From Vicingaceae bacterium (GTDB lineage Bacteria; Bacteroidota; Bacteroidia; Flavobacteriales_E; Vicingaceae), in NCBI GenBank assembly GCA_018402765.1, contig JAGYIE010000001.1, positions 248,001 to 312,000 on the forward strand: DNA of 64,000 nucleotides. The letters run 5' to 3'. Each line of letters begins with the position of its first letter. The first letter of the stretch is position 1. Below, piece by piece: positions 12,270 to 13,787 of this stretch. Under the pieces are notes generated by a model. That model was not told the origin of the DNA. It saw nothing but the letters and a program-made list of their open reading frames with translations, and ran no database searches. A program made the translations under genes and the position numbers.

Positions 12270-12767
12270 CTATTCATTTTTTTTTAGGTTTTAATCTTGC
12301 ACTCACCAACCTCACATCAATCTCTTATGGCTGCAAGTCATTTAATTATATTGAAATCAACTTATCAACTACTAAATTGGTTGTTATTGCTTCTCTAAAG
12401 GTGGAAACGTTTTAAACAGATAAATTGTAATTAATAAAAATATAGTTTAGAGTAAACTATTAAAGGAGTAGAGTTTAGGTAGGTCTAAGATAGATAAAAA
12501 AGTAATTGAATTTACAGATGAACTATAAATTAATTAGTTGCAGAAAGTAAATAGGTTTGGGCTATGGACACAGGCTAGAAGTCTGCACGATTGGGGCTTA
12601 TCCTAATTACACGATTTATTTCCATATCAGCAATCTCAATTTTATCAATCTATCTATTTCTGATAGTATCACCATTGTTTTTTGACAACACAAAACACCA
12701 TTAAATTCAATTGACGTTCGCTGATGTTTCTACTGCTATTTTTTAGGTGAAGTTTACCAATTTTTGC
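12270..12767 (-). other. gene-free stretch upstream of kwaA
   Basis: About 500 bases with no plausible gene on either strand. It contains direct repeat copy A (12443-12543). The kwaA promoter should lie at its left end, but no clear TAnnTTTG box was recognised. Confidence 0.6.
12443..12543 (+). repeat. direct repeat copy A (101 bp) with internal palindrome
   Basis: Matches 13618-13718 along its full 101 bases with about 12 mismatches counted by eye and no gaps. Its left end is a perfect inverted repeat, TAGTTTA-GAG-TAAACTA, and its right part is the conserved block AGATAGATAAAAAAGTAA followed by a shared tail ending TTAATTAGTTGCAG. The two copies are 1175 bases apart and bracket the HNH nuclease gene and its partner. 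Confidence 0.85.
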
Positions 12768-13007
12768 TTACTCATTGTGCTTAATATACAGCAATTGACA
12801 TACCTTATCCATTGCTTTAAAAACTGATACATCAAAATTTGATGATTTTGTTATGCTTGTTAAAGTTACAACCGCATTATAAAGTATTTCATTATCGTTG
12901 TAGCTAATACGTTCAATAAAATTTACTTTATTGCTTCCTTTTGGTGAATTGGATACAATTACTTCTTGTGCAATTACATCTATTGCAAATAATACGTCTT
13001 TATTCAT
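12768..13007 (-). CDS. small hypothetical protein, probable partner of the HNH protein
   Basis: A 79-residue, mildly acidic cytoplasmic protein of unrecognised family, with no signal peptide and one cysteine. It begins 11 bases after the stop of the HNH nuclease gene on the same strand, so the two are likely co-transcribed. Its predicted make-up is a beta-rich first half and a helical second half (AMDKVCQLLYI). An immunity or regulatory role toward the neighbouring nuclease is possible but rests only on position. Confidence 0.5.
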   Translation of the reverse strand: MNKDVLFAIDVIAQEVIVSNSPKGSNKVNFIERISYNDNEILYNAVVTLTSITKSSNFDVSVFKAMDKVCQLLYIKHNE

Positions 13008-13018
13008 TTTTTATTTGA

Positions 13019-13429
13019 TTAGTGATGATGACACCTTCCGTTGGCGTTGGTTATTTTGTTCTTGCATCTCAATCCTTTTTTTGTGGTTCCTGAGCATTGG
13101 CGCGCAGTGGTTGTTCCTTTTTTTGTGGTTTGGCCGGCGCAACAATTTGTGCCTACAATGCTATTATGAATTTTACATACACAACTATTTAATTTGCTAC
13201 GATTACATCTCATACATAATAACTGAATATTGGAGGGGCTGCTGGCTCCTCCGCAGGAGAAGGGGGTTATGTGGTCGTATTCTAAACTCACCGAACTCCC
13301 ACAACACTGACACACGCCACCATCTCTTGTAAAAACAATTTTTTTTGTACTTGTTGAGATATATCGACTCTGTGAAAATCCATAAATGCTGAATATTAGT
13401 AAAATCGATATTAAAAATATTTTTTTCAT
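13019..13429 (-). CDS. exported HNH endonuclease with Cys-rich C-terminal zinc-binding module
   Basis: A 136-residue protein with a clear signal peptide (residues 1-20, MKKIFLIS...GFSQ), then an HNH nuclease core: CQCC (C40, C43), YDHITPF with the catalytic His53, SNIQLLC with Asn67, and LCMRCN (C72, C75). The final residue of the HNH triad is Asn, an HNN form common in the family. The C-terminus (ARQCSGTTKKGLRCKNK...GRCHHH) resembles the small C-x-C-x-C-H modules of the DUF5763 type. Predicted destination is the periplasm or outside the cell, which is unusual for an HNH enzyme. It lies between direct repeats A and B and is followed at 11 bases by a small gene. Confidence 0.72.
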   Translation of the reverse strand: MKKIFLISILLIFSIYGFSQSRYISTSTKKIVFTRDGGVCQCCGSSVSLEYDHITPFSCGGASSPSNIQLLCMRCNRSKLNSCVCKIHNSIVGTNCCAGQTTKKGTTTARQCSGTTKKGLRCKNKITNANGRCHHH

Positions 13430-13787
13430 TCTTTTTCATTAAAATTATAGCTCACCAACGAATGGCAATATCTGCAAAAGTACAATTCTACTTATTTCTA
13501 TAAGGAGTACAAGTGGTTTTATTTAAAACACTCATTGTTAAACACAAAAAAACGTTTGTTGAGGTTTGTTATCATTTAAAAATATCAAATAAAGTAGTTG
13601 TCATTAATCAAAATGTGTAGTTTAGGTTAAACTATTAAGGGAGTATGTTTTAGGTCTGTCCAAGATAGATAAAAAAGTAAATGAATTTACAGATGAACTA
13701 AAAATTAATTAGTTACAGTTAAATTTTCCACAAAACGAGTAAAATTGGTTTATGTAGTTGCTTAGGAATTAGATAAATGCCTTTAAA
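13430..13787. other. gene-free stretch between the HNH unit and the photolyase
   Basis: About 360 bases with no credible gene. It holds direct repeat copy B at 13618-13718 and, to its left, the presumed promoter of the HNH gene. No terminator hairpin with a good T-tract was recognised here. Confidence 0.6.
13618..13718 (+). repeat. direct repeat copy B (101 bp) with internal palindrome
   Basis: Partner of 12443-12543 in the same orientation. The palindrome arms are exactly preserved (TAGTTTA-GGT-TAAACTA) although the 3-base spacer and surrounding bases have changed. This suggests that the inverted repeat itself is under selection or is the functional core. Confidence 0.85.

Follow-up and report, generated by a model that had tools for sequence, protein, structure and literature searches.

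Integron integrases are defined by an IntI-specific additional domain, and surveys for integrons make use of this domain, as set out in PMC9668308, which cites Messier and Roy (2001). Integrases of reverse orientation have been described from spirochaetes (PMC9668308). For the Bacteroidetes, IntegronFinder 2.0 recorded one complete integron, in Salinibacter ruber, whereas earlier only In0 elements had been found in this phylum (PMC9024848).

The system described here, as seen across this genome and its relatives, shares with sedentary chromosomal integrons and CALIN elements (clusters of attC lacking integron-integrase) the co-directional cassettes, attC-like sites of the R''-L''...L'-R' type and a putative cross-over at G/TT. 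It furthermore has a tyrosine recombinase gene with an attachment site next to it, site repeats that are specific to the species, and a cargo that varies and comprises, among others, genes for defence and toxin-antitoxin systems. In contrast to integrons, the sites are dispersed in the genome under study, and the recombinase lacks the IntI-specific domain of about 43 residues, stays below the cut-off of TIGR02249 and carries an extra N-terminal domain. The recombinase gene has its attI-like site at the 3' end, as in the spirochaete reverse integrons. To our knowledge, an extra conserved tail such as the 101-bp repeat analysed here, which we call element E, is not known from integrons. We consider it probable that E is a genome-specific cassette tail standing at module boundaries, and that an HNH nuclease unit and the Kiwa pair beside it are captured cassettes of an integron-like system. 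Within the window, by which we mean the whole analysed stretch of 64,000 nucleotides of the Vicingaceae genome, the two repeats and their surroundings comprise the following features:

9603..10490, minus strand: gene of a Por_Secre_tail protein, beginning directly after the half attC site behind kwaB
10708..11691, minus strand: kwaB (Pfam KwaB, E 1.5e-34; PADLOC, E 1.5e-118)
11688..12269, minus strand: kwaA (PADLOC KwaA, E 4e-76)
12436..12543, minus strand: E copy A, between the 79-codon open reading frame and kwaA, containing 12443-12543
12768..13007, minus strand: open reading frame of 79 aa, no family
13019..13429, minus strand: HNH endonuclease gene, 136 aa (Pfam HNH)
13611..13718, minus strand: E copy B, between the photolyase 3' end and the HNH gene, containing 13618-13718
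13788..15266, minus strand: cryptochrome/photolyase gene, the resident neighbour upstream of E copy B

An alignment of the two copies confirmed the gap-free match of 88% identity over 101 nucleotides that the earlier note had read by eye (12443-12543 and 13618-13718), and the pair can be extended to 108 nucleotides at 86% identity, or about 121 nucleotides by BLAST. In a BLAST comparison of the window with itself this is by far the strongest DNA repeat (E about 1e-33); a short diverged direct repeat of 71% identity over 121 nucleotides, with a 29-nucleotide core at 93%, is located at 56150-56355. The open reading frames likewise bear out that the repeats bracket exactly one leftward unit, the HNH gene plus the 79-codon gene, and that copy A lies upstream of kwaA and copy B upstream of the HNH gene, with KwaA and KwaB assigned by PADLOC and the nuclease by Pfam. 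As in known Kiwa systems kwaA and kwaB are adjacent and in order, and here they have E and att-like DNA on their 5' side and half of a donor-type attC beyond their 3' end. The HNH protein has a signal-peptide-like N-terminus and a Cys/His-rich tail and may therefore work outside the cytoplasm. A Bacteroidota-type promoter between copy B and the HNH gene was considered and dropped, as only a TACTTTTG-like box is present, too far from the TTG. The photolyase gene has different surroundings in relatives, where E is absent, and in the nearest relatives (G001, G002 and G004) the locus lacks synteny, so that an empty site with a single copy was not demonstrable there.

A search of the 3.1-Mb genome (16 contigs) for further copies, as the earlier note had suggested, brought the number of E copies to eight, two of them in the window and six elsewhere:

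C1:42715, C1:186274, C1:354407, C3:16534, C6:531 and C14:800: the other six E copies

A profile built from seven copies gave only weak and no convincing matches in 59 relatives, the exact pattern is absent from GTDB and IMG/VR, and blastn with copy A found no match in plasmids or phages. This confinement to a single genome is as expected of species-specific attC-type repeats. Read toward kwaA, all eight copies have the same orientation and lie about 40-225 nucleotides past the stop codon of a co-directional gene. In six cases a co-directional accessory module comes next:

Kiwa
HNH
HTH_17 and PIN_3
a 186-aa unnamed gene and a type IIG restriction enzyme
PIN_12 and a MazE-like gene
an M50-like gene

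No recognisable module stands behind the copies at C1:186k and C1:42k. With six of eight copies ahead of an accessory module, the distribution is not the random scatter devoid of any link to defence or nuclease genes that, according to the earlier note, would reduce E to a plain dispersed repeat. The copy at C1:42k is followed by about 1.7 kb without clear genes (L088:2991-4716), perhaps a decayed module, and the copy at C1:186k is close to one of three occurrences of a 188-bp non-coding repeat (C1:178186, C1:185717 and C10:446641; 80-96% identity). One PIN gene is split between the starts of C14 and C6 and one KilA-N-like gene between the ends of C6 and C3, and thus the three contigs appear to form a single row with three E copies between modules, the joins being deduced from the protein frames. 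The apparent contig breaks inside these defence-island genes may reflect mixed populations with and without the modules.

Behind E there is a second conserved block, AACTTGCAGACAYAAGAGAAATAARTGCAATWGCRYTTATACGGAT-GTTATG, which forms a small hairpin followed by GTT, and a covariance model of this block (R2) was used to search the relatives. E runs into the block at four of the eight copies (354k, C3, C14 and 42k) and into a decayed version at copy A; the hairpin site is absent at C6, 186k and the window copy B, and the end point of E relative to the hairpin differs between copies. The block also occurs without E, on C5 and in the window, where the two R2-type features are:

12311..12346, minus strand: decayed attachment-type sequence (GACTTGCAGCCATAAGAGATTGATG) downstream of E copy A, hairpin half lost, aligned with intact copies
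28758..28828, plus strand: R2-type hairpin without E (R2 model, E 3.7e-13)

The latter is located 70 nucleotides ahead of a DUF805 RNA motif (RF03081, 77 bits) and a small lipoprotein-like gene, and the region 28758-28968 may be a separate cassette that brings along a leader RNA. In the relatives, R2-type sites were found immediately past the point where a tyrosine recombinase gene ends (G039 with two loci, G031, G002, G009 and G048), and in G048 further copies form rows just ahead of start codons. On the array beside the recombinase of the own genome the model gave zero matches.

E itself is not a folded site and not an attC. The stability of the DNA fold of the composite element equals that of shuffled sequences (z about 0), and no conserved RNA or DNA fold was found on the module strand; the other strand showed weak pairing without covariation. 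This absence of folding is in line with an explanation in which E is a non-autonomous dispersed repeat, similar to MITE or REP sequences, which inserts behind genes and is a passenger at real cassette boundaries rather than part of the recombination site. Like such repeats E is short, non-coding, multi-copy and intergenic, two loci have E without a module, its end relative to the hairpin varies, and relatives with the recombinase system do not contain E. In contrast to MITE and REP repeats, however, E has a fixed orientation behind gene 3' ends and is linked to an attachment-type site: all eight copies are oriented and placed alike with respect to the gene upstream, and four of them, or five with the decayed one, are joined to such a site. 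In addition, neither a linked transposase nor flanking target duplications were identified when the borders were read by eye. We therefore regard the passenger explanation as less likely, albeit as the most serious of the alternatives, and E is more probably part of what moves.

The likely agent of this movement would be a tyrosine recombinase of the Flavobacteriales. A GTDB scan yielded 348 relatives of this enzyme in Flavobacteriales and near relatives, from which 80 loci were kept, 74 of them with enough sequence for analysis. The protein comprises about 380 aa and its gene is conserved in the family; it is accompanied by a divergent zinc-ribbon-like gene (about 125 aa) and lies near rny in two genomes. 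The resident copy at C1:607 kb is divergent, with 587 aa and catalytic motifs intact by eye, and is 250-560 kb away from the E copies. The gene row behind it contains, at C1:603545-605523 (L066:5545-7523), a second tyrosine recombinase and immediately after it an IS91-type (HUH) transposase-like gene, inserted in opposite direction.

Directly past the recombinase stop codon, 56 of the 74 loci have a strong palindrome ending 2-6 nucleotides before a GTT, compared to 0.8% of shuffles, as would be anticipated for a primary attachment site; the own genome has a weak version only. The arms vary widely between genomes and stay complementary nevertheless, several positions showing all four types of base pair, and as the count of complementarity used loci picked for having a hairpin, the comparison with shuffles is the fair test. 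Beyond the GTT both the sequence and the first gene change from genome to genome. The first four open reading frames downstream are arranged as a co-directional array, 129 on the recombinase strand versus 15 on the opposite strand, compared to 153 versus 133 upstream. Arm pairs of attC type framed by AAC and GTT reach 0.52 per kb downstream, against 0.04 per kb upstream and 0.05 per kb in shuffled sequence, which is a 13-fold enrichment behind the recombinase. Moreover, contigs end within 300 nucleotides downstream of the recombinase at 25 of the 80 loci and at none upstream, which fits an array that is variable or repetitive. The first cassettes (L204-L259) nearly all differ between genomes and include many lipoprotein-like genes, and TIR-like and SIR2-like genes, recognised by eye, stand first behind the recombinase in G039 and G048. 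No relatives of the Kwa or HNH proteins were found in the 80 recombinase loci.

Sites with R''-L''...L'-R' arms ending in GTT are present in the relatives, both in the array of G001 and as an attC type of the form GCTAAC-3 nt-CTGTATAGTGCATTGTGG ... CCACAACGCACCATACAG-TAAAC-GTT, of which we counted 15 copies in G001, G004, G007 and G009. These copies are located behind different genes and the next ATG follows mostly 9-60 nucleotides past the GTT. In G007 the same 139-aa gene stands behind two attC copies at two loci with different neighbours, and the identity of this cassette pair jumps from about 80% to nearly 100% at the GTT and is lost again at the next GTTA. Recombination at G/TT leaves just such a change of identity at the GTT of either border, and the comparative evidence thus suggests that cassettes move in this way. 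A strict attC scan of the window from 9 to 16 kb found no site at HNH or Kiwa, which indicates that the sites of the window are decayed or of another form. Three features are located at the borders of the two units:

10512..10591, minus strand: L'-R' half of an attC-like site of about 200 nucleotides, 3' of the Kiwa unit, with the 5' (R'') half decayed and the GTT of R' changed to GTCC
12302..12310, minus strand: GTTGGTGAG, a putative R'-like 5' end of the Kiwa cassette, read directly, 33 nucleotides ahead of the kwaA start
13451..13459, minus strand: GTTGGTGAG, a putative R'-like 5' end of the HNH cassette, read directly, 22 nucleotides ahead of the HNH start

The 80 nucleotides of the kwaB 3' flank match the attC type of the same four relatives (7 copies in G001, 8 in G007, 3 in G004 and 1 in G009) at 83-92% identity over 54-80 nucleotides, with the identity of the 80 nucleotides reaching 89% (E 4e-23). 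A donor-type site on the 3' side of Kiwa, in combination with the resident E type on the 5' side, is as expected of a captured cassette, and it is plausible that the shared 9-mer marks the cassette start of both Kiwa and HNH. Judged by its position, the Por_Secre_tail gene is a possible further cassette.

The same borders bear on homologous recombination by RecA between E copies, in which a circle or segment carrying the HNH unit and a single E would have entered the chromosome at an E copy already present, or a segment would have been duplicated, and for which no site-specific recombinase would be needed. In favour of this, copies A and B are each other's closest relative (84% in the full alignment, with 66-74% for the closer ones among the other copies), and a homology of about 100 bp may be enough. 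However, it does not account for the remaining six loci, where E stands with other modules, for the half attC of donor type behind kwaB or for the GTT borders in G007, and we assign it a low probability.

Even less probable is that E serves as a leader or, as the earlier note considered, as a shared operator controlling both the Kiwa and the HNH units. E does lie upstream of both units, 167-182 nucleotides from the start codons of kwaA and the HNH gene. However, two of the eight copies precede no gene, the spacing to the next start codon ranges from about 40 to 270 nucleotides, and a search of E and its surroundings against Rfam gave no convincing match, in addition to the lack of a conserved fold. 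The palindrome is a property of the window pair: its arms TAGTTTA/TAAACTA are unchanged in A and B, as had been noted, but at least one arm is altered in each of the other six copies (e.g., TTAACTG for TAAACTA), and thus the palindrome is not a conserved core of E. A chance similarity in an AT-rich region can be dismissed in view of the E-value of 2.6e-33 within the window and of the six further copies that the genome contains.

Taken together, the HNH and Kiwa units most likely represent cassettes that were captured. In the mechanism that we propose, E would mark the boundary between the 3' end of a gene and the next module and, where intact, would be joined to an attC-like site consisting of a hairpin or inverted arms, a spacer of 2-6 nucleotides and GTT. 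The recombinase would join circular cassettes at G/TT into the attachment site in the fashion of an integron, and in the window the HNH unit with its 79-codon gene and the Kiwa pair would be a tandem of two captured cassettes behind the photolyase gene. We infer that the recombinase catalyses the movement and that both units arrived by this route; neither excised circles nor an empty site nor polymorphism between strains was observed. The idea that a gene module was inserted by recombination or at an attachment-like site is supported by the E copies that part defence and toxin-antitoxin modules, the R2 sites beside the recombinase and the half attC behind kwaB, although E is not itself a folded site.

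By its anatomy the system functions in the manner of an integron, yet the definition of that family excludes it, as the recombinase is devoid of the integron-integrase domain. Its domains are Phage_integrase and a SAM-like domain, the best NCBIfam model is NF040815 (XerA/integron integrase) with a score around the cut-off, and TIGR02249 (integron integrase) reaches 182-226 bits, below the cut-off of 265. In line with this, the alignment to IntI4 (2a3v) is split, with only about 22 counterparts for IntI residues 180-243, and we conclude from both results that the IntI-specific domain is missing. For the catalytic part, Xer/XerA recombinases (NF040815, PDB 4a8e and 5hxy) are the best family and structure matches, and a fold search with a structure model (pTM 0.47) returned only Xer, IntI and Cre folds, with the N-terminal domain remaining unnamed. 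In contrast to Xer/XerA, the recombinase stands beside a variable cassette array and has an N-terminal extension of about 100 residues. Whether the Flavobacteriales possess an integron type of their own, with a XerA-like recombinase without IntI domain, a hairpin attI at the gene 3' end and attC sites through which genes for Kiwa, restriction, toxin-antitoxin and other functions are spread, and with the 101-bp repeats as species-specific cassette tails, is in our opinion an evenly balanced question.

Surveys relying on the IntI-specific domain would miss such a system, and in the open-access literature we found no description of one in Flavobacteriales, which is no proof of novelty. Apparently, an integron-like gene-capture system that has so far not been described is widespread in flavobacteria: 348 relatives of the recombinase occur in Flavobacteriales and near relatives, whereas almost no complete integrons are on record for the Bacteroidetes, and the 74 analysed loci mostly have an attI-like site. 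If active, the system would be a large route by which cassettes with phage defence genes are shuffled, and would also allow testing whether the IntI domain is really needed for attC recombination.
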